A stretch of DNA of 36,240 bases from an uncultured Clostridia bacterium. Lineage in GTDB: Bacteria; Bacillota; Clostridia; Oscillospirales; Acutalibacteraceae. The DNA lies in the NCBI GenBank assembly GCA_944376265.1, contig CALWCD010000018.1:1-36240 (forward strand). Reading direction: 5' to 3'. How positions within the stretch are numbered: position 1 is the stretch's first letter; each line of letters opens with the position of its first letter. The notes beneath the pieces are model-generated. The model did not search any database. It saw only the letters and a list, made by a program, of their open reading frames with translations, and was not told the origin of the DNA. The position numbers and the translations under genes were made by a program. Below are positions 9,009 through 35,060 of this stretch, piece by piece.

Positions 9009-9055
9009 TGGGATTCCACCTATCAGAAAGTTGCAAACGTAAAAGTTTGTGGGGA

Positions 9056-9074
9056 TTGGGGACAGCGTCCCCAA
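9056..9074. repeat. perfect 8-bp palindrome within locus A
   Basis: TTGGGGAC and GTCCCCAA flank an AGC centre. In transcript sense it is a stable hairpin 48 bases before the fabZ start, without a following T tract. Confidence 0.75.
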
Positions 9075-9114
9075 GGTCTTTGCGCAAAGCGGAGCTTCGC
9101 GAAAAAAGGCATCA

Positions 9115-9157
9115 GGAACATTGTCATACCAGGGCAACGCCCTGTAAACAATGTTCC
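9115..9157. repeat. two-tier palindrome within locus A
   Basis: An outer 10-bp arm pair (GGAACATTGT with ACAATGTTCC) encloses an inner 6-bp pair (CAGGGC with GCCCTG) around AAC. Both tiers are perfect, separated by short asymmetric spacers. Confidence 0.75.
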
Positions 9158-9250
9158 GGCCCTCCAGCGGAGAGCCTGCCCAAAACGCTGGATGGGTCCT
9201 TCTGGGGCTGGTCAGTGCTGGGCGTCCGGAAAACAGCCTATCGCCCTTCG

Positions 9251-9489
9251 GGTCTCACCTGCCGGTTCGGTCAGCGCTGGGCGCTCCCCACCGGGGAGCA
9301 GCGCCGCGTGGGGCTGTTTTCCTGCATTTTTTTGCCGGCTTCGCCGGTTTTAAGGTCGTGGGGCTCCGGTCTCGCCTGCCGGCTCGGTCGGTGCTGAACG
9401 GTCGCCACCGGCGACCAGCACCCTACGCCCCGCTTCTCGCCTTCCGGCTCGGTCCGTCGTTGGGCAGCGTGCCACTGGCACGCAACGAC
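9251..9489 (-). repeat. three consecutive compensated hairpin units within locus A
   Basis: Each unit has a conserved linker (plus strand TCTCGCCTKCCGGCTCGGTC with small changes) followed by a hairpin with a 5- or 6-bp outer stem, a 4- or 5-base one-sided bulge, a 7-bp inner stem and a 3-base loop. Inner stems are GCTCCCC/GGGGAGC, GGTCGCC/GGCGACC and GCGTGCC/GGCACGC. Outer stems are GCGCT/AGCGC, GGTGCT/AGCACC and GTCGTT/AACGAC. Hairpins lie at 9274-9304, 9390-9422 and 9456-9489. The first is also enclosed by an 11-bp pair (9228-9238 with 9312-9322). The stems differ while pairing is kept, so structure rather than sequence appears to be conserved. Confidence 0.85.
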
Positions 9490-9640
9490 CCTTTGAAAAG
9501 GCTGGCGAAACTTTTACGCGCTTCGCGTTGTTTTTTCGATGTCCGCGAAGGTCAACGGCGCGGACGCGCGCCATCGCCCTACACAGGCGCGGCATTCAGC
9601 CGCCGCCCCTATGCGCGACTTGAGTCCAGCGTCACGCTGG

Positions 9641-10087
9641 TTACACAATTCTAAACAGCGGCTGGTTGTACTCCACCACCTGGCCGTTGCCCACGCAGAT
9701 CTCCGCGATGGTGCCGTCCACTTCGGCGGGGATCTCGTTCATCAGCTTCATGGCCTCGATAATGCACAGGGTGTCCCCCTTCTTCACCTGGTCGCCCACC
9801 TCCACAAAGGGACGGGCGTCGGGAGAGGGAGAGGCGTAGAACACGCCCACCGTGGGAGACAGCACCAGGGTGCCCTCCTGCTGGGTCTGGGAGGCCTCGG
9901 GCTGGGAGACCACCCCCAGCACCTCCGGCCCGGTGACCGGGGCGCTCACCGCCGCCACAGGGGCCGCGGCAATCACTTCCTGCTTGCGCTCCAGCTTCAG
10001 CACGGTCTCCCCTTCGGAGAGCTCCAGCGCCGTCAAGCCGGTTTCCTGCATCAATTTGGCCAGACTTTCAATCTTTTTCACATCCAT
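9641..10087 (-). CDS. accB: acetyl-CoA carboxylase biotin carboxyl carrier protein
   Basis: The 148-residue product has an N-terminal helical segment, an Ala/Pro/Gln-rich linker (about residues 40-75) and a C-terminal biotinyl domain. The motif CIIEAMKLMNEI places the biotinylated lysine at residue 114. It carries the carboxyl group between AccC and AccDA. The ATG at 10087 is preferred over the in-frame TTG at 10093 because GGAGGG is seven bases before the ATG and only one before the TTG. It begins two bases after the fabF stop codon, so the two are tightly coupled. Confidence 0.97.
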   Translation of the reverse strand: MDVKKIESLAKLMQETGLTALELSEGETVLKLERKQEVIAAAPVAAVSAPVTGPEVLGVVSQPEASQTQQEGTLVLSPTVGVFYASPSPDARPFVEVGDQVKKGDTLCIIEAMKLMNEIPAEVDGTIAEICVGNGQVVEYNQPLFRIV

Positions 10088-10089
10088 TG

Positions 10090-11322
10090 TCAAACCCTCC
10101 GGAAAGCAAGATAGGCATTGTGGCCGCCAAAGCCCAGAGACGCGGACAGGGCCAAATCAATCTGGGCCTCACGGGCCTGGTTGGGCACGTAGTCCAGGTC
10201 GCACTCCGGGTCGGGCTCCTGATAGCCGATGGTGGGAGGCACAATGCCCTCCTTCACAGCCAGCACGCTGGCAATGGCTTCCACCGCGCCTGCGGCGCCC
10301 AGCATGTGGCCGGTCATGGACTTGGTGGAGGACACCATGCACTGGTGGGCGGCCTCGTCGCCCAAAGCCCTCTTGATGGCCTTGGTCTCGCCGGCGTCGT
10401 TCAGGGGCGTGCTGGTGCCGTGGGCGTTGATGTACAGCTTGGAGAAATCCTCACAGCCGCCGGCCTCCTCCAGGGCCATGGTCAAAGCGGCGGCGCCGCC
10501 CAGTCCTTCCGGATGGGGGGCAGTGATGTGGTGGGCGTCGCAGGAGACGCCGTAGCCGCAGATCTCGCCGTAGATCTTGGCGCCCCGGGCCACGGCGTGC
10601 TCGTACTCCTCCAGCACCAGGGCGCCGGCGCCCTCGCCCATGACAAAGCCGTTGCGGCGGGCGTCAAAGGGTACGCAGGCGGCGGCGGGGTCCTGGGTGG
10701 TGGACAGGGCCTTCATATTGGAAAAGCCCGCCACGCCAATGGGCAGAATGGCAGCTTCCGCGCCGCCGGTAAGCACCGCGTCCAGGTAGCCGTGCTTCAC
10801 GGCCCGGTAGGCCTCGCCGATGGCGTTGTTGCCGGTGGCGCAGGCGGTGACAATGGGGATGGAAGCCCCCTGGAAATTGTATTTGATGGCGATCAGGCCG
10901 CCGGCCATGTTGATGATCATGCCGGGGACGAAGAAGGGGGATACCCGGCGGGGGCCCTTCTCCATAAGCACGCCCTGCTCCTCGGCGAAGGTCTTCATGC
11001 CGCCGATGCCGGAGCCGAAGTAGGTGCCGATGCGCTGGGGCTCCAGAGTGCCCTGAATGCCGCTTTCCTCCACAGCCTGGGTGGCCGCGGCCATGGCGTA
11101 CCAGCAGAATACGTCGTACTTGCGCAGGTCGGACTTTTCCATGTACTGCAGGGGGTCGAAGTCCTTTACCTCGGCGGCCACTTTCACCTTGTAGTCGGTG
11201 GCGTCAAAGTGGGTGATGGGCCCAATGCCGCACTTGCCGTTTTTCAAGCTCTCCCAAAAGGTGGCCACGTCGTTGCCAATGGGGGTGACGCAGCCCATGC
11301 CGGTGATGACAACTCTTCTCAT
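10090..11322 (-). CDS. fabF: 3-oxoacyl-ACP synthase II
   Basis: This 410-residue condensing enzyme extends acyl-ACP with malonyl-ACP. The catalytic triad is visible as Cys161 (VTACATGNN), His301 (NAHGTSTPLND) and His339 (KSMTGHMLGAAGA), which marks a FabF/FabB-type rather than a FabH-type enzyme. It begins MRRVVITGMGCVTPIG, typical of FabF. Its ATG overlaps the fabG stop by four bases. It is the only KAS I/II in the cluster. Confidence 0.97.
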   Translation of the reverse strand: MRRVVITGMGCVTPIGNDVATFWESLKNGKCGIGPITHFDATDYKVKVAAEVKDFDPLQYMEKSDLRKYDVFCWYAMAAATQAVEESGIQGTLEPQRIGTYFGSGIGGMKTFAEEQGVLMEKGPRRVSPFFVPGMIINMAGGLIAIKYNFQGASIPIVTACATGNNAIGEAYRAVKHGYLDAVLTGGAEAAILPIGVAGFSNMKALSTTQDPAAACVPFDARRNGFVMGEGAGALVLEEYEHAVARGAKIYGEICGYGVSCDAHHITAPHPEGLGGAAALTMALEEAGGCEDFSKLYINAHGTSTPLNDAGETKAIKRALGDEAAHQCMVSSTKSMTGHMLGAAGAVEAIASVLAVKEGIVPPTIGYQEPDPECDLDYVPNQAREAQIDLALSASLGFGGHNAYLAFRRV

Positions 11323-12056
11323 ATGGCAAGCCCCCCATCCACGCGAATGGTCTCCCCGGTGATGTAGTCACTCTCGGGAGAGGCCAGGAACAGGGCCACG
11401 TTGGCCACGTCCTCGGGGGTGCCCATCTTCCGCATGGGAACCTGCACCAGCAGGGGGTTGTCCTCCTTGATGTCCTTGGTCATGGCGGTCTCAATAAACC
11501 CGGGGGCGATGCAGTTGCAGCAAACGCCACGGCTGCCCAGCTCCTTGGCCACGCTCTTGCTCAGGCCGATAAGCCCCGCCTTGGAGGCGGCGTAGTTCAC
11601 CTGGCCCACGTTGCCCACCAGGCCGGCGATGGAGCTGATGTTGATGATCTTGCCGCTCTTCTTCCGCATGAAGTCCCGATAGCAGGCGCGGATCATGTGG
11701 AAGGCGCCCTTCAGGTTGATGTCCAGCACCATGTCGTAGTCGGCGTCCTTCATGGTGACCATCAGGCCGTCCCGGGTGACACCGGCGTTGTTCACCAGAA
11801 TGTCCACCTTGCCCAGGTCCTTCTTCACCGCGGCCACAGTGTCCTCCACGGCCTGCTCGTCCCGCACGTCGCAGGGGTAGCTGATGGCCCGGCGGCCCAA
11901 AGCCTCAATCTCCTTGCAGGTCTCCAGGGCAGGCTCCTCCGGCCCCACGTAGATCACCGCCACGTCGGCGCCGTTTGCCGCCAGCTTCAAAGCGATGGCC
12001 TTTCCAAGGCCCTGGGAAGCGCCGGTGACCAGCGCGATTTTTCCTTCCAGCTTCAT
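11319..12056 (-). CDS. fabG: 3-oxoacyl-ACP reductase FabG
   Basis: The 245-residue short-chain dehydrogenase reduces 3-oxoacyl-ACP with NADPH. It shows the cofactor loop TGASQGLG (11-18), NNAG (89-92), and the catalytic Ser142, Tyr155 and Lys159 (YAASK). The C-terminus YITGETIRVDGGLAI is typical of FabG. The start at 12056 has AGGAGG nine bases upstream; the longer frame to 12107 is not supported. A 116-bp gap separates it from fabD and contains GC-rich hairpins but no clear T-tract terminator. Confidence 0.97.
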   Translation of the reverse strand: MKLEGKIALVTGASQGLGKAIALKLAANGADVAVIYVGPEEPALETCKEIEALGRRAISYPCDVRDEQAVEDTVAAVKKDLGKVDILVNNAGVTRDGLMVTMKDADYDMVLDINLKGAFHMIRACYRDFMRKKSGKIINISSIAGLVGNVGQVNYAASKAGLIGLSKSVAKELGSRGVCCNCIAPGFIETAMTKDIKEDNPLLVQVPMRKMGTPEDVANVALFLASPESDYITGETIRVDGGLAI

Positions 12057-12172
12057 ATGTCTGAACCTCCTGTCCGCTCCCCTCCCAGATTCTGAGGGGA
12101 ACGGCATCCTTCCTTTTTAGATTTCTCTATGTTCTCCCCGGGGCAATTTCCCCGGAGTCGCTTCCCACAGCT

Positions 12173-13093
12173 TCAGGCCTGAGCCTTCAGCGCTTCCATG
12201 GCGGCCTCCAGGCTCTCCTGGTCCTGCACGTTCAGGGTTTTGACCCCCTTCACCGTCTTGCGGATGAGGCCGCACAGCGTCTTGCCGGGGCCGCACTCGA
12301 TGAAGGTGTCCACCCCCAGGGCGCACAGGTTTTCCACGGTCTCCTGCCACCGCACCGGGTTTTTCACCTGCTGGGTCACAAGCTCCTTGGCGCTCTCGTC
12401 GTAGGGCTGGGCGGTGAAGTTGGCGTACACCGGCACCTTGGCCTCTCCCAGCTCCATGGGCTCCAGCACCCCTTTCAGGGTCTGGGAGGCGCTCTCCATA
12501 AAAGGGGAGTGGAATCCCCCGCTGACGGCCAGAGGCACCGCCTTGCCGCCGGCCTCGGCCACCTTGCCGCAGAACTCCTCAATCTGGGACTTCTCTCCGG
12601 CGCACACCAGCTGGCCGGGGCAGTTGTAGTTCACCGGCCACACCTTCTCAAAACCGGCGCACAGCTCTTCCACCTGCTCATTCTTCAGCTTCAGCACCGC
12701 GGCCATGGCTCCGGGGTTTTCCTCCCCCGCCTGCTGCATGGCCTGGGCCCGCTTGCACACAAAGTCGAATCCCTGCTCTTCGGTGAACACCCCGGCGTAA
12801 GCCAGCGCGGCAATCTCCCCCAGGGAGAAGCCCGCCACATAGTCGGGGGTCACGCCGGCTTCCTCCAGGGCCTTGGCGGCTGCCAAGTCCACGCAGTAGA
12901 GGCAGGGCTGGGTGTTTTTGGTGATGGACAGCTCTTCGGCGGTGCCGGTAAAGCACTGCTGGGAAGTGCCGGGACGCAGCCGGTCCGCCGTGTCGAACAA
13001 GGCCTTGGCGGCGGGGCTTGCCTCGCAGAGGGACTGTCCCATGCCGCTGTACTGGGCTCCCTGGCCCGCGAAAACAAAGGCTATTTTACCCAT
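12173..13093 (-). CDS. fabD: malonyl-CoA:ACP transacylase
   Basis: The 306-residue product charges ACP with malonate. FVFAGQGAQYSGMG opens the protein, the nucleophile elbow GFSLGE gives Ser90, and SGGFHSPFM gives the catalytic His195. The length is standard for FabD. The ATG at 13093 follows AAAGGAG and lies inside the end of fabK, with a 13-bp overlap, so translation is probably coupled. The longer frame upstream is the fabK region in another frame. Confidence 0.97.
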   Translation of the reverse strand: MGKIAFVFAGQGAQYSGMGQSLCEASPAAKALFDTADRLRPGTSQQCFTGTAEELSITKNTQPCLYCVDLAAAKALEEAGVTPDYVAGFSLGEIAALAYAGVFTEEQGFDFVCKRAQAMQQAGEENPGAMAAVLKLKNEQVEELCAGFEKVWPVNYNCPGQLVCAGEKSQIEEFCGKVAEAGGKAVPLAVSGGFHSPFMESASQTLKGVLEPMELGEAKVPVYANFTAQPYDESAKELVTQQVKNPVRWQETVENLCALGVDTFIECGPGKTLCGLIRKTVKGVKTLNVQDQESLEAAMEALKAQA

Positions 13094-14025
13094 TTGCCGG
13101 CTCCTTTCAGCACCTCTTCCGCCTGCTGGAACATCTCTTTGATGATCTCCGCGGCGGGCTGCTCTTTGTTCACCATGCCGGCGATCTGCCCGGCCAGGAA
13201 GTCGCCGGTCTTCTCGTCGCCCTCCACGGCGGCCCGGTACAGGGCGCCGCTGCCCAGCTTCTCCAGCTCCTCGTCGGAGATCTGGCTGTACTCGGCCTTG
13301 GCGTAGTCCTTGGCGAACTGGTTCTTGATCTGCCGCACCGGATGGCCCAGCCGCTTGCCGGTGACCATGGTGGCGATATCGTTGGCCTTTAAGACCTTTT
13401 TCTTGTAGTTGGGATGCACACCGCACTCCTGGGCCACCAGGAACCGGGTGCCCACCTGGACGCCCACAGCTCCCAGCTGGAAGGCGGCCGCAATGCCTCT
13501 CCCGTCGCCGATGCCGCCTGCCGCCAGCACGGGCAGGGTGGTGGCGTCCACCACCTGGGGCACCAGCACCATGGTGGTCAAATCACCCACATGGCCGCCG
13601 GACTCGCCGCCTTCGGCGATGATGGCCGCGGCGCCTGCCTTGGTCACCAGCTTGGCCATGCCCACAGAGGCCACCACGGGGATCACCTTGATGCCCGCTT
13701 CCAGCCACATGGGCATGAACTTGGAGGGGTTGCCGGCGCCGGTGGTCACCACGGCCACCTTCTCTTCCGCCACCAGCTTGGCCACCTCATCGGCAAAGGG
13801 GGACATGAGCATGATGTTCACGCCGAAGGGCTTGTCGGTGAGGCTGCGGGCCAGGTCGATCTGCTTTTTCAGGTACTCGGCGTTGGCGTTCATGGCGGAA
13901 ATAATGCCCAGGCCGCCGCCGTTGGACACGGCAGCCGCCAGCTTCCCGTCGGAGATCCAGGCCATGCCGCCCTGGAAGATGGGGTATTCAATGCCTAAAA
14001 GGTCACAGATAGGCGTTCTGATCAT
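13081..14025 (-). CDS. fabK: enoyl-ACP reductase II (FMN-dependent)
   Basis: This 314-residue TIM-barrel flavoprotein of the nitronate monooxygenase superfamily carries out the last reduction of each elongation cycle. The FMN/substrate motif EGGESGGHVGD, the N-terminal YPIFQGGMAWIS and LAAGGIGDGRGIAAAFQLGA are typical of FabK. Its place between fabH and fabD supports this over a nitronate monooxygenase. FabK replaces FabI in many Firmicutes and is insensitive to triclosan. AAAGGAT lies before the ATG at 14025. Confidence 0.95.
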   Translation of the reverse strand: MIRTPICDLLGIEYPIFQGGMAWISDGKLAAAVSNGGGLGIISAMNANAEYLKKQIDLARSLTDKPFGVNIMLMSPFADEVAKLVAEEKVAVVTTGAGNPSKFMPMWLEAGIKVIPVVASVGMAKLVTKAGAAAIIAEGGESGGHVGDLTTMVLVPQVVDATTLPVLAAGGIGDGRGIAAAFQLGAVGVQVGTRFLVAQECGVHPNYKKKVLKANDIATMVTGKRLGHPVRQIKNQFAKDYAKAEYSQISDEELEKLGSGALYRAAVEGDEKTGDFLAGQIAGMVNKEQPAAEIIKEMFQQAEEVLKGAGKWVK

Positions 14026-14069
14026 AGGACTTCAATCCTTTCTACTCACTGAATGGTTCTTCTATCTCA

Positions 14070-14088
14070 AAGCGGGGAGGCCCCGCTT
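14070..14088. repeat. hairpin in the fabH-fabK gap
   Basis: AAGCGGGG and CCCCGCTT pair perfectly around a three-base loop in the 114-bp gap. In the operon sense it is followed by TTGAGATAG, a poor T tract, so it may be a stabilising or processing hairpin rather than a terminator. Confidence 0.55.
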
Positions 14089-14139
14089 GCTGCGCGTGGC
14101 CGCACAGAGCTGACGAAGTGGGGCGATGTTCGGCGCCAT

Positions 14140-15096
14140 TCACCAGCGAATCACACAGGCCGCCGTGGACAATCCCCCGCCGAAAGCGGTGAGCACCACG
14201 TAGTCCCCCCGCTGGAGCAGTCCCTGACGGTTCGCCTCGTCCAGGAGGATGGGCTCGCTGGCGGAGGAGGTGTTGCCGTAGCGGTCGATGTTCATCAAAA
14301 ACTTCTCGGGAGCGATCTCGGGAATGCGCCGCCGGGCCTCGTTGATAATCCGGTAGTTGGCCTGGTGGGGAATCACCGCCTTCACCTGCTCCCCGGTAAT
14401 CCCGGCCTGGTCCATCACCAGCCGCACGTCCCGCACCATGGAGGTGACGGCGAACTTGTAGGTCTCCTGGCCGGCCATAAAGACGCAGTTTTTCGGGAGC
14501 TCCTTCTCATAGAAGGGGGAGTTGTTCCACCAGGTGGGGATGGAGATCACGTCGTCCCCGCCCAGGGTGCTCAGGGTGGAGGACAGGTAGCCGTCCCCTT
14601 CTCCCAGCACGGTGGCTCCGGCGCCGTCGCCGAAGATGACGCAGGTGCTCCGGTCCTGCCAGTCCAGCAGGCCGCTCATCCGCTCGGAGCTGACCACCAG
14701 CACCTTCTTCACCACCTTCCGGGCGAAGAACCCGGCGGCCACGTCCAGGGCGAACAGGAACCCGGGGCAGGCCACGTTCATGTCGAAGCAGGGGCAGGTG
14801 GCCCCGATGCGGTTCTGCACCATGCCCGCCAGTCCGGGGGAAATGGTGTCCGCGCTGATGGTGGCCCCGATGATCAGGTCCAATTCCTCCGGGCGGACCC
14901 CGGCGTTCTCCAGGGCCGCCAGAGAAGCCGCCACACCCATGTCCGTGTTGCTTTCAGTGGTGCACACGTGGCGCTCTTTCACGCCCACCCGTTTCGTGAT
15001 CCACTCGTCTGAAGTTTCCACCATTTTGGAAAGGTCATCGTTGGTGACGATCTTTTCCGGGGTAAAGCTGCCTGTACCCAAAATTTGAAAGCTCAT
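14140..15096 (-). CDS. fabH: 3-oxoacyl-ACP synthase III
   Basis: The 318-residue product starts fatty-acid synthesis by condensing an acyl-CoA with malonyl-ACP. The triad is Cys110 (NVACPGFLFAL), His244 (VIPHQANYR) and Asn275 (RYGNTSSAS), exactly the FabH pattern. The ATG at 15096 follows AGGAGATCGGGAT and starts the recognisable domain (MSFQILGTGSFTPEKIV); the longer frame to 15207 crosses the promoter and is rejected. It is the first gene of the operon. Confidence 0.97.
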   Translation of the reverse strand: MSFQILGTGSFTPEKIVTNDDLSKMVETSDEWITKRVGVKERHVCTTESNTDMGVAASLAALENAGVRPEELDLIIGATISADTISPGLAGMVQNRIGATCPCFDMNVACPGFLFALDVAAGFFARKVVKKVLVVSSERMSGLLDWQDRSTCVIFGDGAGATVLGEGDGYLSSTLSTLGGDDVISIPTWWNNSPFYEKELPKNCVFMAGQETYKFAVTSMVRDVRLVMDQAGITGEQVKAVIPHQANYRIINEARRRIPEIAPEKFLMNIDRYGNTSSASEPILLDEANRQGLLQRGDYVVLTAFGGGLSTAACVIRW

Positions 15097-15158
15097 ATCC
15101 CGATCTCCTGTTCTTGTTTTTTCTCTCTTTTTTCCACCGGTTTTCCCGGCCATGCAAC

Positions 15159-18390: not shown

Positions 18391-19095
18391 ATGCGTAAGA
18401 TCCTTGTTGCGGAGGACGAACAGAACATTCGTGAATTTGTGGTCATCAACCTGGAACGGGCCGGCTACGAGACCTTTGAGGCCGAGACCGGCGACCGGGC
18501 CCTGGAGCTCTACGACCAGGAAAACGGCGACTTCGACGTGGCCGTGCTGGACATCATGATGCCCGGGGAACACGACGGCCTGGCGGTGTGCAAGGAGCTG
18601 CGGCGGAAAAACCCCTCCATCGGCATCATCCTCCTCTCCGCCCGCACCCAGGAAATGGACAAGGTAAGCGGCCTGATGATGGGCGCCGACGACTACGTGA
18701 CCAAGCCCTTCTCCCCCTCGGAGCTGGTGGCCCGGGTGGACGCGGTGTACCGCCGGGTGGCCCTGGCCTCCGACAAGCGGGAGGGCGCCGTCCGGGACGA
18801 GCTGGTCTCCGGAGAGTTCTGCCTGAACCTGCGCAACCGGTCCTTCCTCAAGGGGAAGCGCCCCATCGAGCTGACCCAGGTGGAGTTCCAGATTATGGAG
18901 TATTTCTTCTCCCATCCCGGTGTGGCCCTGAACCGGGGGGATATCCTGAAGCACGTGTGGGGCGCCGGCTACACCGGCGAGGAAAAAATTGTGGACGTGA
19001 ACATCCGCCGCCTGCGCATGAAGGTGGAGGAGGAACCCTCCAACCCCCAGCACATCGTCACCGTCTGGGGCTTGGGGTATCGCTGGGACGTATGA
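18391..19095 (+). CDS. OmpR/PhoB family response regulator
   Basis: The 234-residue product has a receiver domain with acidic residues at 9-10, phospho-acceptor Asp54 (VLDIMMPG), Ser83 and Lys105 (VTKPFSP). A winged-helix DNA-binding domain (about 130-234, ending HIVTVWGLGYRWDV) follows. Two extra residues in the loop after Asp54 (GEHDG) are slightly unusual. It should be phosphorylated by the downstream kinase and control transcription. AAAGGGGGA precedes the ATG. Its stop codon lies inside a 13-bp palindrome, and about 515 bp of repeats separate it from the kinase. Confidence 0.96.
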   Translation: MRKILVAEDEQNIREFVVINLERAGYETFEAETGDRALELYDQENGDFDVAVLDIMMPGEHDGLAVCKELRRKNPSIGIILLSARTQEMDKVSGLMMGADDYVTKPFSPSELVARVDAVYRRVALASDKREGAVRDELVSGEFCLNLRNRSFLKGKRPIELTQVEFQIMEYFFSHPGVALNRGDILKHVWGAGYTGEEKIVDVNIRRLRMKVEEEPSNPQHIVTVWGLGYRWDV

Positions 19096-19116
19096 CCCTC
19101 AAGTGAGGGTCATACG
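19089..19116. repeat. 13-bp palindrome containing the response-regulator stop codon
   Basis: CGTATGACCCTCA and TGAGGGTCATACG are exact inverted repeats around AG. The left arm contains the last coding bases and the TGA stop. No T tract follows on either strand, so it is not a standard terminator. It marks the start of repeat locus D. Confidence 0.85.
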
Positions 19117-19383
19117 GAAAAAACCTCGAGATCGGAACGATCTCGTTTTCGCTTCGCGAAAATGCAGGTTTTTTCTCTCATCACTTTCACCCGGAACGGA
19201 CCCGTTTTCCCTTCGGGAAAATTCAGGTTTCTCTCGTGTAATGCCTGGTGGAAAAAACTTGAGATCGGAACGGTTTCGTTTTCCCTTCGGGAAAATGCAG
19301 GTTTTTTCTCTCATCACTTTCACCCGGAACGGACCCGTTTTCCCTTTGGGAAAATGCAGGTTTCTCTGGGCGGTTACCGCCGT
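19116..19383 (+). repeat. tandem repeat of about 133 bp, two copies (part of locus D)
   Basis: Copy 1 (19116-19249) and copy 2 (19250-19383) each hold two related subunits, whose CGGAAC cores start at 19133, 19192, 19266 and 19325 (offsets 59, 74, 59). Each subunit has a TTTTCCC-TTC-GGGAAAA-type hairpin followed by ATGCAGGTTT or ATTCAGGTTT. The first subunit of each copy folds as a three-way junction: AAAAAACCT or AAAAAACTT pairs with AGGTTTTTT and encloses a hairpin with a GAA loop plus the TTC-loop hairpin. Short open frames through it follow the repeat and do not look like proteins. Confidence 0.88.
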
Positions 19384-19610
19384 GACGCTGGACCCAAGCC
19401 GCGCCTTGGACCGTTCGCTAACGCTCAGGCTGCGTAATGCGTAGGCGCGGGTCCGCGCCGTCAGTTTGTGTGCTGCTTTTTGCGAAGCTCCCGCCGCGGA
19501 CACTGAGGAACCAGGTCCCACCGGGGTGAGTAAGCGCAGCGCACGCCCCCGCGGCTTAAAAGTTCTTTGCAGGCTTTCTTTCAAGAAAGCCGGGGAAAGG
19601 AGGAAGGCAA
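19384..19610 (+). repeat. mosaic structured intergenic element, locus D (second part)
   Basis: After the tandem repeat come modules shared with locus A in the same order: GTGACGCTGGAC plus CAAG and CGCGC (from 19382), GGGTCCGCGCCG (19449-19460), TAAAAGTT (19557-19564), and a palindrome GGCTTTCTT-TC-AAGAAAGCC (19572-19591) just before the kinase ribosome binding site. No gene is apparent. Confidence 0.75.
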
Positions 19611-22899: not shown

Positions 22900-23640
22900 A
22901 TGAACGAACATCGTCTGGAAGAATTGCTCCAGGGCACCGCCCGGCGGGAGGAGGAGGCCTTTTCCCTGCTGTACCGGGAGTTTTTCCCGGTGGTGAAAGG
23001 CATTGCCCGAACCGTGCTCCCCACCGGGGAGGACAGCGCCGACGCCGCCCAGGAGGTATTTGCCCTGCTGTGGGCCCTGGCCCCGGAACGGTTTCCCACC
23101 CGGAACCCGGGGGCCTGGCTTTACACGGTGACAAAACGCCGGGCCTGGGAGCTGCTGAAAAAACAGCGGCCCGCCCTGCCGCTGGAGGACCTGCCCCAGC
23201 TGCCCAGCCCCGAACCGGGCCCGGAGTCCGCCCTGGACGAGGAGGCCTTCCGGGAGCTTACCGCCCCTCTGGACCCCGTCTCCCGGCAGATTGTCACCCT
23301 GAAGCTCCAAGCGGGCTTCACCCATGGGGAGATTGCCCGGCTGCTGGGCCTGAACCCGGCCACGGTCCGGTGGAAGTACGCCAAAGCTGTCCACACGCTC
23401 CGGCTGTTCTGGGGGAATCTCCTGGGGGCTGTGGCGGCTGTTTTGGCGGCGGTGTGGGCCTTCCCCCGGCCGGAGATCACCGCCGGGGGCCCCAGCGAAG
23501 GGGGCGTGGATCTCCCGGAGCTGGGCGTCCTCCCGGAAACGGACTGGTTCCCCTGGGCGCTGCTGCCCCTGCTTGCCGCCCTGCTGGCTTTGGTTGCGGG
23601 GTACTTCGGCTGGAAGCTGTGGAAAAAACGAAAAAAATGA
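22900..23640 (+). CDS. ECF-type sigma factor with two C-terminal transmembrane helices
   Basis: Residues 18-90 match sigma region 2 (FSLLYREFFPVVKGIAR, DAAQEVFALLWAL, GAWLYTVTKRRAWELLKK). Residues 115-168 match region 4, with a helix-turn-helix (THGEIARLLGLNPATVRWKYAKAV). The protein continues with a hydrophobic helix (about 172-188), a 28-residue acidic loop and a second helix (about 216-237) ending in a basic tail (KLWKKRKK), 246 residues in all. No separate anti-sigma gene follows. The tail may tether or restrain the sigma domain at the membrane. GGGGGGAGG precedes the ATG. Confidence 0.9.
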   Translation: MNEHRLEELLQGTARREEEAFSLLYREFFPVVKGIARTVLPTGEDSADAAQEVFALLWALAPERFPTRNPGAWLYTVTKRRAWELLKKQRPALPLEDLPQLPSPEPGPESALDEEAFRELTAPLDPVSRQIVTLKLQAGFTHGEIARLLGLNPATVRWKYAKAVHTLRLFWGNLLGAVAAVLAAVWAFPRPEITAGGPSEGGVDLPELGVLPETDWFPWALLPLLAALLALVAGYFGWKLWKKRKK

Positions 23641-26646: not shown

Positions 26647-26841
26647 GGGCGCAGCTCCTTTCCAATGAAGTGAGCGCAGAGGGCACGCGTAAAAAGTTTG
26701 CAGAGCGCAAGACGCCCACCAGGCCGGCAAGTTTTTTCTAAAACGTTACCCACTTTCGGCGCAGACGGGCTCTCACGTCCAGCACAGGCGCGGCGCTAAG
26801 CCGCCGCCCCATGGTGCGAATTGTCCAGCGGGGGCACCCGC
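26647..26841 (-). repeat. mosaic structured intergenic element, locus B (potB-potC gap)
   Basis: Reading with the operon, a GCGGG-CCCGC hairpin abuts the potB stop. The GGCGGC hairpin module (26783-26810) is 25 of 28 bases identical to that in locus A and lies the same 32 bases from the stop codon. A further 15 bases on is CCGTCTGCGCCG (26757-26768), again at the locus A spacing. The remainder has AAACTTTTTACGCG near the potC end. No gene is visible. Confidence 0.82.
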
Positions 26842-28884: not shown

Positions 28885-28913
28885 ATTATACTGGCTCTCT
28901 TTCCCCTTGTCAA
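28885..28913 (-). promoter_or_regulatory. consensus sigma-A promoter of potABCD
   Basis: On the minus strand TTGACA (28908-28913), exactly 17 bases, then TATAAT (28885-28890). Both boxes match consensus fully. The palindrome at 28851-28875 lies immediately downstream, which fits a strong promoter held by a repressor. Confidence 0.9.
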
Positions 28914-28969
28914 GGCGAAGGGCGCAGGTTAGTTTTAACTATCACCTTTTTCTTTTCCCCGCCCCCCAC

Positions 28970-28997
28970 AAAAAGAAGCCGGCGGCCCGCCGGCTTC
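28970..28997 (-). terminator. intrinsic terminator of recA-recX
   Basis: GAAGCCGGCGG and CCGCCGGCTTC pair around a single central base (about nine pairs with a realistic loop), followed on the minus strand by TTTTTGT. It lies five bases after recX. Confidence 0.88.
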
Positions 28998-29002
28998 CCA
29001 GT

Positions 29003-29620: not shown

Positions 29621-30801
29621 CAGTCGTCGTCCACCGTGATGTCGATGCTCTTCTTGGCCGCCGCCTTATTGGCGGGGGCAGGGGCCGCCCCTTCCGGGGC
29701 CTCCTCCTGGGCGGGCATCTCCACAGGCTTGGCCACGTCCTTGGGGGCGGGCCGGTTGGGGAGCTTGTCGTACAGCTTGTCCACATTGGCCCGCACAGCC
29801 TGCTCGATCTCGTCGGCCATCTCCGGGTGGTTGGTGAGGAACTCCTTGGAATTGTCCCGGCCCTGGCCGATGCGCTCCCCGTTGTAGGAGAACCAGGCGC
29901 CGCTCTTCTGGACCACCTCCAGCCGGACGGCCATGTCCAGCAGCTCGCCCATGCGGGAGATGCCGGTGCCGTACATCACGTCGAATTCCGCGGTGCGGAA
30001 GGGAGGGGCGATCTTGTTCTTCACCACCTTGGCCTTGGTGCGGGCGCCGATGATGTCCGTGCCGTTTTTGATGACCTCCGCCTTGCGCACCTCAATGCGC
30101 ACGGAGGAGTAGAACTTCAGGGCCCGGCCGCCGGGGGTGACTTCCGGGTTGCCGTAGATGACGCCCACCTTTTCACGAAGCTGGTTGATAAAGATGGCCA
30201 CGCAGTTGGACTTGGAGATGGCGCCGGCCAGCTTCCGCAATGCCTGGCTCATCAGCCGGGCCTGCAGGCCCACGTGGGAGTCGCCCATCTCCCCCTCGAT
30301 CTCCGCCCGGGGCACCAGGGCCGCCACGGAGTCCACCACAATCACGTCGATGGCGTTGGACCGCACCAGCGCCTCGGTGATCTCCAAAGCCTGCTCGCCG
30401 GTGTCCGGCTGGCTCACCAGCAGGCTGTCCACGTCCACTCCCAGGTTCCCGGCGTACACAGGGTCCAGGGCGTGCTCCACGTCGATAAACGCGGCGTTGC
30501 CCCCCTGCTTCTGCCCTTCGGCAATGCAGTGCAGGGCCAGGGTGGTCTTGCCGGAGGATTCCGGCCCGTAGATCTCGATAATGCGGCCCCGGGGCATGCC
30601 GCCAATGCCCAGCGCCAGGTCCAGGGACAGGCTGCCGGTGGGAATGGCCTCCACGTTCAGGGCGGAATCCTGCCCCAGCCGCATAACGGCCCCTTCGCCA
30701 AACTGCTTCTTAATCTGCGCCAGGGCAGTTTCCAGTGCCTTGGCCTTTTCCTCGGCGCCGTTTGCCGCCTTGGCCACGGCCGCCTTTTTGCTCTCCGCCA
30801 T
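29620..30801 (-). CDS. recA: recombinase RecA
   Basis: The 393-residue RecA has Walker [10 protein letters not shown] (79-87), [18 protein letters not shown], the L1/L2 region with [20 protein letters not shown], and [14 protein letters not shown]. It binds single-stranded DNA, pairs strands and triggers LexA self-cleavage. It is longer than the E. coli protein (352) because of an N-terminal Lys/Ala stretch and an Ala/Pro/Glu-rich tail ending in DITVDDD. The ATG at 30801 follows AGGAGG. The frame upstream to 30894 is the promoter region and is rejected. Confidence 0.98.
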
Positions 30802-30840
30802 ATCAGTAACCTCCTGTGAAGTGGTGTTTCTCTGCCCTCT

Positions 30841-30869
30841 ATTATATAGGATGCTGCCGGGAAAAGCAA
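30841..30869 (-). promoter_or_regulatory. recA promoter
   Basis: On the minus strand TTGCTT (30864-30869), 17 bases, then TATAAT (30841-30846), about 40 bases before the recA start. Confidence 0.8.
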
Positions 30870-30887
30870 TGGATTTCCCAAAATTTC

Positions 30888-30901
30888 CGAACAAACGTTT
30901 T
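30888..30901. promoter_or_regulatory. LexA (Cheo/SOS) box upstream of recA
   Basis: CGAACAAACGTTTT matches the Gram-positive LexA consensus CGAACRNRYGTTYC at 13 of 14 positions. It is centred about 25 bases upstream of the -35 box and just touches the stop codon of the kinase gene. It is the only such site I found near recA. Confidence 0.8.
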
Positions 30902-31398
30902 TACTCCGGGTACTTTCCCTCCAGCTCTTCCCGGTCCGGGGGCTGGAACAAAGCCGCCCGGGATTCCACATCCTCCCGGGTAATGGTGGAAAACACGTCC
31001 TCTCTCCCCTCACGGCCCCGGTCTTCCAGCCGGCGGCAGAGCTCCTCCAGAGGGGCGCAGGTGTAGCGGATTTGAAACCCTGCCCCCAGGGCCTGGGCTT
31101 CCCGGTACTTTTCCTCCCGCTCCTCCCTGGCCCAGAAGCCGTAGTCCAAAATGACGCTGACCCCTTTTTCCAGCAGCTTTTTTCCCAGCTCCCACTGAAG
31201 CGCCTCCACCCGGCTGTGGCGGTCATCGTGAAGGGCGTGCTCCTCCGGGTGGTGGAAGTCGTCCCCGAACAGGAACAGGTGCCACTCGTCCGGGGTGAAC
31301 CGAACGGCGCCTGTCTCCTGCTCCAGCCGCTTGGCCAGGGTGGTCTTGCCCGAGCCTGGCAGGCCCACCATCAGGGTGAGGGTAGGTCTTGGTTCCAT
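30901..31398 (-). CDS. P-loop ATP-binding kinase-like protein
   Basis: The 165-residue product has Walker A GLPGSGKTT (12-20) and the AAA_33/zeta-like pattern: FTPDEWHLFLFGDD, then ILDYGFWAREEREEKYREAQ and a C-terminal Arg-rich segment. Such proteins phosphorylate small substrates, but the substrate here is unknown. AAGGAGG precedes the ATG at 31398. It is transcribed toward recA from its own promoter; no terminator separates it from recA, so some read-through into the SOS gene is possible. I prefer a generic predicted-kinase name to any drug-resistance label. Confidence 0.85.
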   Translation of the reverse strand: MEPRPTLTLMVGLPGSGKTTLAKRLEQETGAVRFTPDEWHLFLFGDDFHHPEEHALHDDRHSRVEALQWELGKKLLEKGVSVILDYGFWAREEREEKYREAQALGAGFQIRYTCAPLEELCRRLEDRGREGREDVFSTITREDVESRAALFQPPDREELEGKYPE

Positions 31399-31420
31399 GG
31401 CGGTCCCTCCTTTTGGGAGT

Positions 31421-31449
31421 ATCATAGGGGAGGCCGCCGGATTTGTCAA
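31421..31449 (-). promoter_or_regulatory. promoter of the P-loop kinase gene
   Basis: Minus-strand TTGACA (31444-31449), 17 bases, TATGAT (31421-31426), about 25 bases before the start codon. It is back to back with the ABC-F promoter. Confidence 0.82.
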
Positions 31450-31467
31450 CGTGTTTCCCGAAAACAG

Positions 31468-31496
31468 TTGACAAACCTTCTCCCCCGTGCTATCCT
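31468..31496 (+). promoter_or_regulatory. promoter of the ABC-F gene
   Basis: TTGACA (31468-31473), 17 bases, TATCCT (31491-31496), with TG one base before the -10 as in extended -10 promoters. It gives a leader of about 225 bases before the coding start, long enough for attenuation control. Confidence 0.82.
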
Positions 31497-31676
31497 GTGG
31501 CTGATAACAAAATGAATGGAGTGGAAGGATGTTAGTATAAGCCTTGAGATCGGACGAGACCATCACTGGCTTTCGGGCATGGCCCGGGGGCGGTTTCGTG
31601 CTGCCGGTTTTCGTGGCTTGTGACATCCTTTTTCTATGGCTGGGGGCGGGGCCTCCTGCCTTTTCCTGGGATGCGT

Positions 31677-31709
31677 GGGTCTGTTCCGGCGGCGGGACAG
31701 GCCCTTTTT
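31677..31709 (+). terminator. attenuator before the ABC-F gene
   Basis: GGGTCTGTTCC and GGGACAGGCCC form an 11-pair stem (two G-U) with a GGCGGC loop, followed by TTTTT. The hairpin ends 18 bases before the ATG, so it must be bypassed for expression. GGGGCCT about 30 bases upstream can pair with AGGCCC of the 3' arm and could act as antiterminator. Very short frames lie in the leader (for example MLV and MARGRFRAAGFRGL), but none has a convincing ribosome binding site. Confidence 0.8.
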
Positions 31710-31727
31710 GCATGTTGAGGAGGCACT

Positions 31728-33284
31728 ATGCTGCAAGTACGAAATTTGACCGTCACCATGAAAAAAGACCTTCGCCAGCTGCTGAAGGACTTCACCTTCG
31801 CCCTGAACCCCGGGGACAAGGCCGCCATTATCGGGGAGGAGGGCAACGGGAAGTCCACCCTGTTAAAGCTGCTGTACGACCCGGCCATGGTGGAAGAGTA
31901 CGTGGAATATACCGGCACCATCCAAACAGACGGCATGATCCTGGGCTACCTGTCCCAGGAGCTGCCCCCGGACCAGGGGGAGCTTTCCGCCTATGAGTTC
32001 TGCTGCCAGGAACCCGCCTTTCTGGACGCTTCCCCGGGGGAGCTGGCAGCGGCTGCCAAACAGCTCCGGTTCCCCCTGGAATGGTTTTACGACGCCCGGA
32101 AGATGTCCACCTTTTCCGGCGGGGAGAAGGTGAAGCTGCGCATGGCCCTTTTAACCCTGCGCCGCCCCGACTGCTACCTGCTGGACGAGCCCTCCAACGA
32201 CCTGGACATTGAGACCCTTACCTGGCTGGAGGAGTTTATCCGGGAATGCCCCGCGCCGGTGCTGTACATCTCCCACGACGAGACCCTGCTGGAGAACACC
32301 GCCAATGTGATCCTCCACCTGGAGCAGCTGCGGCGCAAGACCCTGCCCCGGTGGACCGTGGCCCACATGGGCTACCGCCAGTACGTGGAGGAGCGGCTCC
32401 ACAAATTCGCCCACCAGGAGCAGCTGGCCCGGAAAGAGCGGGAGGAGGACCGAAAGAAGCAGGAACGGCTGCGGAAGATCCAGCAGAAAGTGGAACACCG
32501 GCTGGACACCATCTCCCACGCGGAGCGGGACCACGTGGGACAGCTTTTGAAAAAGAAAATGAAAGCGGTAAAATCCATGGAACGCCGCTTTGACCGGGAG
32601 CGGGAGGACATGACGGAATTCCCAGACAGCGAGGAGGCCATCCTGGTGGGGTTTGGGGAGGACACCGGCCTGCCCTGGGGCAAGACCGTGGTGGACTTCA
32701 CCCTGGCCCGGCTGGAAACCCAGGACCGGCTGCTGGCCCAAAACCTGCGGCTGTACGTCCGAGGGCCGGAGCATGTGGGGATCATCGGCCGCAACGGGGC
32801 GGGGAAGACCACCTTCCTCCGGGTCCTGGCCCGGCAGCTGCTTTCCCGCCAGGACCTGCGGGCGGCCTACATGCCCCAGGACTACGGGGAGACGGTGGAC
32901 CAAACCCAGACCCCGGTGGAATTCCTGGCCAAAAGCTGGGAGAAGGAGGAGCTTACCCGGGTAAAGACCTACCTGGGCAGCATGAAGTACACCCCCCAGG
33001 AGCAGGAGCACACCATCCGGGAGCTTTCCGGGGGCCAGAAGGCCAAGCTGTTCTTCCTGAAAATGATCCTGGACGGGGCAAACGTGCTGGTGCTGGACGA
33101 GCCCACCCGGAATTTCAGCCCCCTGTCCGGCCCGGTGATCCGGGGCATCCTCCGGGATTTCCCCGGGTGCATCATCAGCGTGTCCCACGACCGGAAGTAC
33201 CTGGGGGAGGTTTGCTCCACCCTGTACCGTCTGGAGCCCCAGGGCCTGGTGAAAACAGACAACCCCTGGGCCACTGACAACTGA
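31728..33284 (+). CDS. ABC-F family ATPase (ribosome-acting, possibly antibiotic resistance)
   Basis: The 518-residue protein has two ABC domains and no membrane segments. Walker A motifs are GEEGNGKST (36-44) and GRNGAGKT (354-361), and signatures are FSGGEKVKLRM and LSGGQKAKLFFLK. Walker B motifs are CYLLDEPSNDLD and VLVLDEPTRNFSP. A charged helical linker (about 225-290) joins the domains, as in proteins that reach into the ribosome. The second half resembles the clostridial group of ribosome-protection ABC-F proteins, and the attenuator leader fits antibiotic-induced expression. The drug class cannot be assigned. GAGGAGG precedes the ATG. Confidence 0.92.
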   Translation: MLQVRNLTVTMKKDLRQLLKDFTFALNPGDKAAIIGEEGNGKSTLLKLLYDPAMVEEYVEYTGTIQTDGMILGYLSQELPPDQGELSAYEFCCQEPAFLDASPGELAAAAKQLRFPLEWFYDARKMSTFSGGEKVKLRMALLTLRRPDCYLLDEPSNDLDIETLTWLEEFIRECPAPVLYISHDETLLENTANVILHLEQLRRKTLPRWTVAHMGYRQYVEERLHKFAHQEQLARKEREEDRKKQERLRKIQQKVEHRLDTISHAERDHVGQLLKKKMKAVKSMERRFDREREDMTEFPDSEEAILVGFGEDTGLPWGKTVVDFTLARLETQDRLLAQNLRLYVRGPEHVGIIGRNGAGKTTFLRVLARQLLSRQDLRAAYMPQDYGETVDQTQTPVEFLAKSWEKEELTRVKTYLGSMKYTPQEQEHTIRELSGGQKAKLFFLKMILDGANVLVLDEPTRNFSPLSGPVIRGILRDFPGCIISVSHDRKYLGEVCSTLYRLEPQGLVKTDNPWATDN

Positions 33285-33288
33285 ACGG

Positions 33289-33322
33289 AAAAAACCGCCG
33301 GACACATGCCCGGCGGTTTTTT
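33289..33322. terminator. bidirectional intrinsic terminator
   Basis: AAAAAACCGCCGG and CCGGCGGTTTTTT form a 13-pair palindrome around an 8-base loop, with A and T tracts on both sides. It serves the convergent ABC-F and M28 peptidase genes. Confidence 0.93.
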
Positions 33323-33331
33323 TGCAAGAGC

Positions 33332-34609
33332 TTATTGTTCCTCGGCAGCTTCGGAGAGCTCCTTCTTGTACAGGTACTTCTCCACGTCCTCCACAATGTT
33401 CTGGGGGATCTTCCGCTCCACAGGCAGCACCTTGGCGTTTGCCATGGCCTTGCCGAACTCCAACACAATGTGGGTGGTCTTGGCCAGAGCCTCGGGAGAG
33501 AGGAACTCCAGGGTGTCGAACCGGTTGTGGATGTAAGCCGCGCCTTCCGCGCCGTCACGGCTGAAATTGATGCCGGGCACGCCGCTGTCGGCGAAGGGGA
33601 TGGAGTCGCTGGAGTAGATGCCCTGCTTCACCTCAGCGGAGAAACCGTGGATCTTCACAAAATACTCCATAAAGGAGGCAAGCTTCTCCTCGGCGGTGGC
33701 GGTGACCCGGTCCACGCCCAGAATGGGGCCGCCCACGTCCACGTTGATCATCAGCAGGTGGTCCTTCAGCTCCTCCTTGTGGCCCTTCACGTAGGCCCAG
33801 CTGCCCTCCAGGCCGATCTCCTCCGAGCCGTACCACATGAACTTCAGGGTCCGCTTGGGGGGATTCTCAGCGAAGTACCGCAGCACCTCCATGTTGATGA
33901 CAGAGCCCGCGCCGTTGTCGTACACACCCTTGGAGAAGTCCACAGAGTCGTAGTGGGCGCCGAAGGAGACGATCTCCTCCGGTTTCTCCGTGCCCAGCAC
34001 CGTGGCCACCACGTTGTGGGAGGTCCACTCCTCCGTGCGGCCCTTCAGCACAATCCGGGCCTTGCAGGCGCCTCTGCGCACCATGTCTATGGCGTCCAGC
34101 ACCCGGGTGTGGACCATGGGCAGGTTGCCGAAGGCCCGCAGGGTGCGGCGCAGCTTCCGGGTGGACAGGTCGGTCTCCTCCCGTTTGTCCCGCAGCTGGC
34201 CCTCCATGGTGACAACCCCCGCCACGCCGGCCTTTATCAGCCGCTTGAACAGGGGCACCCGCATAAAGCCGTTCACCAGCACGATCTTCCCCCGCACGTC
34301 GGCAAGGTCCACATCGGTGCCGTTTTCCACGTAGACAAACTCCGCGGTGAGCCCCTCCTCCGGGGTGTTTTCCGCGCACTGGTAGCCTGTCACGGGATAT
34401 TCCTGATAAAAGGGCTCCAAGATCTCCAGCTTGGCTTCCTCCACAATGCCCTGCTCGATCTCAAAGGGCTCGATAATGGCGGGAACGCCCATGGCGTCGC
34501 ACTCCGCCTTTAAAATCTGGGCCGCTTTCTCCTCCTCTGCCGAACCGGCGATCCGGGTGAACCCGATCTTCTCCAGCAGCTCCATTTCCCGCTTCCCACA
34601 GATTTCCAT
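33332..34609 (-). CDS. M28 family metallopeptidase
   Basis: The 425-residue product has the five M28 zinc ligands and catalytic acid in order: His219 (GAHYDSV), Asp231 (VYDNGAG), Glu263/Glu264 (GSEEIGLEGS), Asp291 (INVDVGG) and His361 (AYIHNRFDT). A PA-like insert lies at about 90-200. No signal peptide or membrane segment is seen, so it is probably a cytoplasmic aminopeptidase. The ATG at 34609 follows AAAGGAGG. Substrate specificity is unknown. Confidence 0.93.
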   Translation of the reverse strand: MEICGKREMELLEKIGFTRIAGSAEEEKAAQILKAECDAMGVPAIIEPFEIEQGIVEEAKLEILEPFYQEYPVTGYQCAENTPEEGLTAEFVYVENGTDVDLADVRGKIVLVNGFMRVPLFKRLIKAGVAGVVTMEGQLRDKREETDLSTRKLRRTLRAFGNLPMVHTRVLDAIDMVRRGACKARIVLKGRTEEWTSHNVVATVLGTEKPEEIVSFGAHYDSVDFSKGVYDNGAGSVINMEVLRYFAENPPKRTLKFMWYGSEEIGLEGSWAYVKGHKEELKDHLLMINVDVGGPILGVDRVTATAEEKLASFMEYFVKIHGFSAEVKQGIYSSDSIPFADSGVPGINFSRDGAEGAAYIHNRFDTLEFLSPEALAKTTHIVLEFGKAMANAKVLPVERKIPQNIVEDVEKYLYKKELSEAAEEQ

Positions 34610-34641
34610 GGCAAGATCCTCCTTTGTTTTCCAAATGCCCC

Positions 34642-34668
34642 AAGACCCGGGGCTGTTCCCCAGGTCTT
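34642..34668 (-). promoter_or_regulatory. leader hairpin of the M28 gene
   Basis: AAGACC and GGTCTT enclose GGGG/CCCC with one U-G pair, 11 pairs in all, starting within a few bases of the expected transcript 5' end. No T tract follows. It probably stabilises the messenger or is a regulatory fold. Confidence 0.55.
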
Positions 34669-34680
34669 TGCTTTATTAAA

Positions 34681-34709
34681 GTTATACACCACAACAGCGC
34701 CCCCGTCAA
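34681..34709 (-). promoter_or_regulatory. promoter of the M28 peptidase gene
   Basis: Minus-strand TTGACG (34704-34709), 17 bases, TATAAC (34681-34686), with TG one base before the -10. It lies just downstream of the repeat element that follows cysS. Confidence 0.82.
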
Positions 34710-35060
34710 GGGAAAGCGCCGGCTCAGCGCTTTCCGGCCGCGCCTTGGCCTATCGCCCGGGGCGCGTGCAGCCTGCGGCGCTGCATTTTTGGCGGCTGCG
34801 CTGGTTTAGGGTTGCCGGGCGCTGATTTGTCCCTCTCCGCTTGTCGTCCGCTCGCCGGGCTATCGCCTGGGGCGCGTGCGCCCGGCTCGCTGCTTTTCTT
34901 TCCGGCTGCGCCGGGTCAAGGTCGCGCCTTTTTGAAAAAAGGCGCCCGAAAAACTTTTACGCCGCTTCGCGGTTTTTCCTTCTTCGGTCCGGGCACAGAC
35001 ACCTTCTTACGGCGCGGACGCGAGGGGGCCTCCTTATCAGGCGCGAAGTGTCCAGTCCGG
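34710..35060 (-). repeat. mosaic structured intergenic element, locus C (after cysS)
   Basis: Reading with cysS, the AGTCCG/CGGACT hairpin has the cysS TGA stop in its loop. Then come GGAC and CGCGCC, the GCGTCCGCGCCG box (35010-35021), TAAAAGTTT (near 34952-34959) and a TC-centred 10-bp palindrome (34924-34945), the same order as in loci A and D. Two copies of CTATCGCCYGGGGCGCGTGC (34750 and 34860, one mismatch) show a 110-bp internal duplication. Each is followed by a GC hairpin, then a short T-rich run and a CCGGC-TGC-GCCGG-type hairpin. No gene is apparent. Confidence 0.8.

Follow-up and report, generated by a model that had tools for sequence, protein, structure and literature searches.

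Four intergenic loci (A to D) in a 36,240-nt stretch of an uncultured Clostridia bacterium of the Acutalibacteraceae (contig CALWCD010000018.1, the window) carry members of a repeat family with an 84-nt core unit, described here in the orientation of the gene that precedes it. We interpret the family as clade-specific, non-coding, mosaic interspersed repeats with a structured core that are comparable to BOX and BIME repeats and would act in 3′ untranslated regions (UTRs), and give this reading a probability of a little under 0.6. That the four loci form one family had been proposed from the sequence alone, which understated the observation: copies of the shared unit occur throughout the genome, at 27 places with a covariance model built from 16 copies (R1, E≤1) and at 23 with one built from 96 copies (R2, E≤0.01).

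The complete unit is present in A, B and D, and C is a version from which the second stem-loop has been deleted. Its parts are, in order, a stem-loop S1, a linker, AAKTCGCG(C), a TTGGG-like stretch, a stem-loop S2, a spacer and a GCGTCCGCGCCG- or GCACGTGCGCG-like box, whose GCGC pairs with the first GCGC of the unit in a closing stem. S1 has a stem of 5–6 bp and a loop of the form TGN or TGNN. The linker behind S1 is 4–5 nt long and mostly tied to the S1 type: ACCC goes with CAGCG-TGA-CGCTG, GGAC with GNNNG-TGNN, TGTC or TCTC with NNNAG-TGC, and GGC with GGGGT-TGC. As all four loci are among the 16 seeds of R1, their match over the full 84 positions is by construction, and the evidence comes from the other copies.

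Copies and taxonomic range

R1 was positive in seven of the 60 genomes searched, including that of the window, and all seven belong to one genus. R2 found copies in the same seven of 29 genomes of this genus (40, 23, 23, 16, 4, 2 and 1 copies) and in none of the other 22, with 150 candidates scored per genome; the covariance-model search of the genome and its relatives, which the sequence-only reading had suggested, thus yielded many further copies, 109 in total. Among 394 genomes from 168 genera of the order, searched with stricter filters and 11 candidates scored per genome, the genome of the window was the only carrier, in a set that held at least three further members of the genus and under filters that weak copies could escape. 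In a tree of three concatenated proteins from 28 of the 29 genus genomes, the carriers form one clade with a local support of 0.990; the tree is midpoint-rooted, its inner branches are partly weak, and G024, which had only partial matches, was left out.

The genes that host the copies are core operon genes unrelated to each other; an integron attC site came into consideration only on account of the location behind stop codons. Three boxes were counted in intergenic and coding sequence of sampled stretches, picked around matches: CGTCCGCGCC occurred 15 times against 2, GACGCTGGAC 12 against 2 and GTAAAAGTTT 10 against 0. Tandem copies are found on contig C9 (three), on contig C20 (several) and in G021 (four, L291), and in G012 S1 cassettes form arrays, with CGCG at the joints.

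In 48 of 79 cases, the nearest relative of a copy was in the same genome but at a different locus (mean of 20.6 and maximum of 41 in 2000 permutations). Since nearest relatives are genome-specific, the family appears to have spread within lineages; together with the tandem arrays and with the orthologous sites that are filled in one genome and empty in another (see below), this supports a spread within the genomes of one clade.

Position at stop codons

Sense copies or arrays occupy 42 strand-specific spacers, and in 29 of these the start of the first unit lies in the interval from −9 to +2 nt around the upstream stop codon. The start of the 5′-most unit falls at −9 in five spacers, at −1 to 0 in 16, at +1 to +2 in eight, at +6 or +7 in two, and further away in 11. 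That copies would lie just after stop codons had been anticipated, and where the spacer length is known, 27 of 36 first units do start no later than +2, where uniform placement would give 0.63. Between convergent genes the same holds for eight of ten first units (0.23 expected). At the five loci with a start at −9, including C, the TGA of the S1 loop is itself the stop codon of the called frame.

Of 356 gene ends in a sample enriched in family matches, 17 had a 5-bp hairpin whose start fell between −2 and +2. A tendency of gene ends in general to carry a hairpin directly after the stop codon is therefore weak at most, and as seven of the 17 are family members, it belongs mainly to the repeat family.

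Conservation of the hairpins

R1 contains no S1 base pairs; its matches are therefore, apart from the 16 seeds, a fair sample for S1. A perfect S1 stem of at least 5 bp was present in 57 of 73 distinct sequence windows, compared to 2.4 on average and at most 9 in 200 shuffles. The 57 stems comprise 14 different inner stems, and 56 of the loops start with TG. This test is the least biased of those we made, as the S1 groups used below were formed after the stems had been seen and the alignment of S2 and the closing stem was fitted to its structure.

In the S1 group with four-base loops, pairing was 100% against 78.2% in shuffled alignments, with a covariation score of 0.568 against 0.183; taken alone, this score is a measure that relatedness of the copies can inflate. 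The values were 89.9% against 62.2% and 0.599 against 0.143 for the group with three-base loops, and 92.6% against 80.1% and 0.290 against 0.107 for S2 with the closing stem (96 copies); in each of the three alignments, none of 500 shuffles reached either value. Shifting the pairing partners by one to three columns sharply lowered both measures in all three. Hairpins that keep pairing while their letters change hint at a role as RNA. An early scan for hairpin modules was poor as a count (control motifs gave 156 and 155 hairpins, or 3.5% and 6.6% per site, against 157, or 7.9%), and only its TG-loop subset was used.

The four loci of the window

The elements of the four loci are as follows.

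9556..9640, minus strand: core unit of locus A (S1, linker, TCGCG, S2, box); R1 92 bits, E 2.1e-12; R1 seed
9641-9643, minus strand: stop codon of BCCP, directly before the unit of locus A
9626..9640, minus strand: S1 stem-loop of A, CCAGCG-TGA-CGCTGG; perfect 6-bp stem, 0 nt after the stop codon
9586..9607, minus strand: S2 stem-loop of A, GGCGGC..GCCGC; offset 33 from the stop codon; S2 covariation over 96 copies
9009..9555, minus strand: mosaic tail of A (CGCGGACA box, GTAAAAGTTT module, GACCGAGCCGGCAGGCGAGAC module and others), as read from the sequence
26757..26841, minus strand: core unit of locus B, adjoining the stop codon of the ABC permease gene upstream; R1 77.6 bits, E 6.6e-10; R1 seed
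26647..26841, minus strand: whole 195-nt spacer of B, kept in G019 at 91–92% (178/193 and 176/194 identical; flanking fourfold sites 0.67 and 0.58)
35010..35068, minus strand: core unit of locus C without S2, its S1 (GTCCG-TGAC-CGGAC) overlapping the end of cysS; R1 34.5 bits (weak), E 0.0175; R1 seed
35061..35063, minus strand: stop codon TGA of cysS, inside the S1 loop of C
19377..19460, plus strand: core unit of locus D, internal in the spacer, with a broken S1 stem and no perfect S1; R1 77.9 bits; R1 seed
19089..19116, plus strand: palindrome of D, CGTATGACCCTC-AAGT-GAGGGTCATACG, with the response-regulator stop codon (19093-19095) inside, as read from the sequence
19116..19367, plus strand: 133-bp tandem repeat of D, 1.9 copies, of other hairpins

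The identical spacing in A and B that had been pointed out is real: counted from the stop codon, GGCGGC starts at 33 nt (given as 32) and the CGTC[CT]GCGCCG box at 74 nt in either locus. A hairpin at or near the stop codon had been described for all four loci; in A, B and C this is S1, whereas the hairpin of D at 19089-19116 is not, and there the shared unit starts 281 nt downstream. The GGCGGC hairpin, thought to be restricted to A and B, is indeed missing from C, which has lost S2, but D has a homologous S2 with a different stem. The hairpins in the tandem repeat of D are of the form CGGAACG..CCCTTCGGGAAAATGCAGG, and the repeat sits directly behind the palindrome, whose 12-bp arms include the stop codon.

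Orthologous sites

The BCCP-FabZ spacer that harbors locus A has 632 nt in the genome of the window (G000) and 244 nt, with another S1, in G019, where most of the mosaic tail has no counterpart; in 12 of the 27 genomes measured, including the carrier G003, it is only 12–22 nt long. For the gene upstream of the C7 copy (readable at 9 of 23 loci), G003 and G023 show an empty form with AGGAG directly behind the stop codon, while S1 follows exactly after the stop codon in G000, G019 (with one mismatch), G012 and G025, where it is either of the CAGCG or of the GTCCG type. In G021, a partial GTCCGTGGC lies at the stop codon and a GCGCG-type S1 comes after it. The site of locus D is an 85-nt spacer without the unit in G019.

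Between G000 and G019, the S1 types of locus A differ but 71 of 81 positions of the body are identical, and at the C7 gene, G012 and G021 likewise have different S1 on bodies that share 85 of 92 positions. The simplest reading for the two sites would be that hairpin cassettes were exchanged while the stop codon in front of them stayed fixed; the differing S1 could alternatively stem from separate insertions. S1 turnover thus appears to proceed by exchange of whole cassettes of hairpin and linker, with the stop codon and the body unchanged.

At the end of cysS (readable at 25 of 27 loci), the arrangement with the stop codon in the loop is common to G003 and G000, and at locus C, where the S1 loop supplies the stop codon, CysS keeps its usual length. 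In G021 and G025 (L378, L366), CysS appears to continue across an S1-like remnant and on into the linker; if so, repeat sequence forms the C-terminus of the protein in these two genomes.

These sites bear on two further explanations. Hairpins could have been born in place at gene ends, through template switching in replication and without transposition, as the stop codon within the palindrome of D, the loop-encoded stop of a CysS of usual length and the partial GTCCGTGGC retained before a new hairpin in G021 might suggest. The same sequences of S1, linker and body, however, occur at unrelated genes, a recurrence that local birth does not explain, and we consider it improbable. Alternatively, the repeats could be a mobile system of RNA or DNA hairpin cassettes that actively finds gene ends, with new cassettes of S1 and linker being placed exactly at stop codons and replacing one another while the body stays. 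The loop would then sometimes supply the stop codon, and the system would perhaps work via the mRNA or the terminating ribosome. We know of no enzyme for insertion directed to stop codons and regard such a system as unlikely.

Constraint on individual copies

The length of spacer B is the same in G000 and G019, 195 nt, and its full-length identity is 91–92%, against 0.67 and 0.58 for the fourfold-degenerate sites of its neighboring genes. Seven further spacers that the two genomes share in this syntenic block, leaving aside A (0.80) and D, are 0.62–0.89 identical, with the top value obtained over only 44 columns. The alignment of the D spacers (74/85), which pits 515 nt against 85 nt, was not used. 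The body of A is 88% identical between the two genomes, against 0.63 for the fourfold sites of its gene. In all, body identity exceeds fourfold identity in four of seven orthologous pairs: A, B, L096-L278 (40/56 against 0.60) and L268-L290 (57/62 against 0.81). These comparisons support the view that some copies are now maintained by selection, as at B and the core of A.

Conserved structure, along with the conservation of B and of the body of A between G000 and G019, would also be expected of a vertically inherited, non-mobile host regulatory RNA, such as an attenuator or a riboswitch-like element. The genome-specific subfamilies, the tandem arrays of three to four copies, the antisense copies, the unrelated host genes and the D site of G019, which lacks the unit, all speak against it, leaving this explanation with little probability.

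Relation to known families

No named family had been recognized in the window from the sequence, and Rfam (4227 families, gathering cut-off) gave no match there or in 16 related loci. The match to a known mobile element or non-coding RNA family that had been considered as an alternative was not found in Rfam, in one query each against phages and plasmids, or in viral contigs searched with three exact patterns; on these searches, we rejected a phage, plasmid or viral origin. A scan of A and B for intrinsic terminators, taken as a GC-rich stem with a T run behind it, found none on the sense strand of A (2 on the plus strand; 1.2 expected in all) and none at B (0; 0.5 expected), and a terminator role was dropped for these two loci.

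Small, structured repeats of mosaic build are a known class (BOX, PMC3049150; GTAG and CGTC REPs, PMC3733652; review, PMC2229807), and the many dispersed, mosaic, structured and non-coding intergenic copies found here are of the BOX/BIME type. The comparisons with individual families follow extracts of the cited papers. BOX of Streptococcus pneumoniae is a family of modular structured repeats with variable internal copy number, restricted to few species and probably parasitic; several are co-transcribed, and their distance to genes tracks the general decay of spacer lengths (PMC3049150). The 84-nt family resembles BOX in modular structure, variable copy number and narrow range, a likeness by description, but differs in that its first copies sit at the stop codon.

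GTAG REPs and BIMEs and the CGTC palindromes are short hairpins between genes that come in stem variants, form mosaics and in some cases lie near stop codons (PMC3733652, PMC12306157), all features that they share with the 84-nt family. In E. coli, 446 of 4,072 REPs lie ≤15 nt from a stop codon and are reported to lower translation (PMC12306157); this compares to 31 of 42 sense spacers here, counting first copies only and with a different denominator. The similarity invites an origin of the REP/RAYT or IS200 type, in which single-strand hairpins are moved in trans by a Y1 (HUH) transposase, and a short hairpin with a conserved flank, intergenic and multicopy, would fit it. The REP/BIME likeness is superficial, though. 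No Y1_Tnp was found in the genome of the window or in six of the seven carriers, which are drafts of 82–98% completeness, so that a gene may have been missed; one carrier has it, as do 8 of the 22 non-carriers of the genus. Neither a GTAG nor a CGTC tag stands beside S1 among the flanks listed: the 5′ flanks of 90 S1 hairpins are stop codons (26), CGCG (22), ribosome-binding sites (4) or other sequence (38), and the 3′ linkers are of the GGAC, TGTC, GGC and ACCC types. Given the Y1_Tnp distribution, we disfavor this origin and hold it to be highly improbable.

Neisserial intergenic mosaic elements (dRS3/RS) are mosaics of short palindromes and longer units. They share palindrome mosaics with the 84-nt family, but dRS3 equals CGTC-1 of the CGTC-tagged class (PMC3733652), a tag absent beside S1. 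YPAL/RU-2 of Yersinia are small palindromic repeats of intergenic regions that are expressed together with the genes before them and have filled and empty sites; YPAL measures about 168 bp, with target duplications of 3–26 bp (PMC2229807). Small intergenic palindromes with filled and empty sites are likewise found here, whereas the length differs, no duplications were seen at two sites, and the extract on YPAL describes no variable cassette like S1. Insertion close to stop codons is also a property of YPAL/RU-2. The literature searched held no account of such repeats for Ruminococcaceae or Oscillospiraceae, and none for Faecalibacterium or Flavonifractor among the matches listed.

Adjoining modules

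The TAAAAGTT sequence and the palindrome centered on TC had been counted as parts of the element. They are present, but as a separate module that also occurs in relatives without the repeat family. A module of the form AAAGTTT..CTTTT-C-AAAAG..GGGACAG(A/C)GTCCC is found in the tail of A (~9470-9520), in C (~34920-34960) and at L253, L373 and L374 (G001, G022, G018); because members of the genus without the R1 family also have it behind genes, it is older or more widespread than that family. The AAAAGTT module is thus an element of its own, with a wider distribution, that is joined to the 84-nt unit.

Another module, (GTTTCCAGCGCTGG)GAGTAAGCGCAGCGCACG..CCCCGCG, joins the R1 unit at L102 (contig C20, ~22,930-23,520), at the end of L097, at L098 (14,100-14,450), in the window (~19,500-19,556) and at L235, at times head to head with an inverted copy. 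At L274 (G012, contig C145, ~3380-3725), a coding-like segment ending in GTGGTATAA is tandemly repeated upstream of an R1 copy, and the gene end seems to have been duplicated along with its stop codon.

Interpretation

We propose that the repeat has spread within the genomes of one clade, as the distribution of its copies supports. The unit evidently settles, or is retained, with its 5′ edge (S1) at the end of the upstream gene. Co-orientation with this gene in about two thirds of the strand-specific spacers leads us to expect co-transcription, as 3′ UTR or inter-cistronic RNA. With S1 behind the stop codon, followed by S2 and the closing stem, the unit would most likely act at the RNA level, altering translation termination and the coupling to the next gene. 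Hairpins can shield the upstream message from 3′ exonucleases, and S1 and S2 may perhaps do so as well.

Several results weigh against this interpretation. The anchor is absent from 13 of the 42 sense spacers, two of which (1245 and 1341 nt) probably reflect gene-calling misses, and the 42 are not fully independent, as some are orthologous across genomes and one spacer is counted on both strands. The orientation with transcription that had been noted for all elements holds for A to D; over the fetched loci it is a 2:1 bias, with 21 strand-specific spacers antisense to the upstream neighbor against the 42 in sense, and for two of these antisense spacers (L103 and window 34901) the assignment depends on one doubtful hairpin. 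The covariation that had been looked for is borne out by the covariation scores and paired percentages. Two stricter measures, how many pairs covary and how many pair types occur, were not above the shuffles for S1 (386 and 333 of 500 shuffles reached them in the four-base-loop group, and 106 and 386 in the three-base-loop group) and were so only narrowly for S2 (25 and 23 of 500). Perfect S1 stems were seen in 22 of 22 copies at stop codons and 44 of 51 elsewhere; the difference is not significant (p = 0.09), and we rejected a better preservation of stop-adjacent S1. Body identity did not exceed that of fourfold sites in three of the seven orthologous pairs, two between G000 and G012 (41/57 against 0.80; 38/52 against 0.77) and one between G000 and G021 (44/53 against 0.83); the constraint at spacer B is not general to the family. 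The Y1_Tnp search of the seven carriers, with its single positive, revealed no mobilizing enzyme, and no target-site duplication was visible by eye at the two filled and empty sites (A and the C7 gene), where the right end of the unit is undefined.

The pairs without constraint beyond fourfold sites would suit neutral parasitic repeats, which insert at random and survive only where they are harmless. In tight operons the harmless places would be the few bases that separate a stop codon from the next ribosome-binding site, and the anchor would be a survival bias. In the empty form of the C7 gene the stop codon is directly followed by AGGAG, and only that junction would thus tolerate an insert; also in line with neutrality, six antisense R1 copies start ≤30 nt from the start of the neighboring gene, beside its ribosome-binding site. 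Yet the eight of ten copies between convergent genes are equally within 2 nt of the stop codon, where no ribosome-binding site is at risk, the hairpins stay paired while their sequence changes, and spacer B is kept far above fourfold sites. We therefore consider neutrality rather unlikely and prefer structured repeats that would act in 3′ UTRs.

As far as the literature was searched, the family itself is new, as are its nearly base-exact anchor at stop codons, with stops encoded in loops, and the turnover of hairpin cassettes. If insertion itself aims at stop codons, this would imply a targeting mechanism not yet known. The family offers a compact and testable case of short structured repeats that may be turning into regulatory RNA, a case that builds on their range within one clade, on filled and empty sites, on pairing that is kept, on at least one strongly constrained copy and on a nearly base-exact position relative to translation termination.

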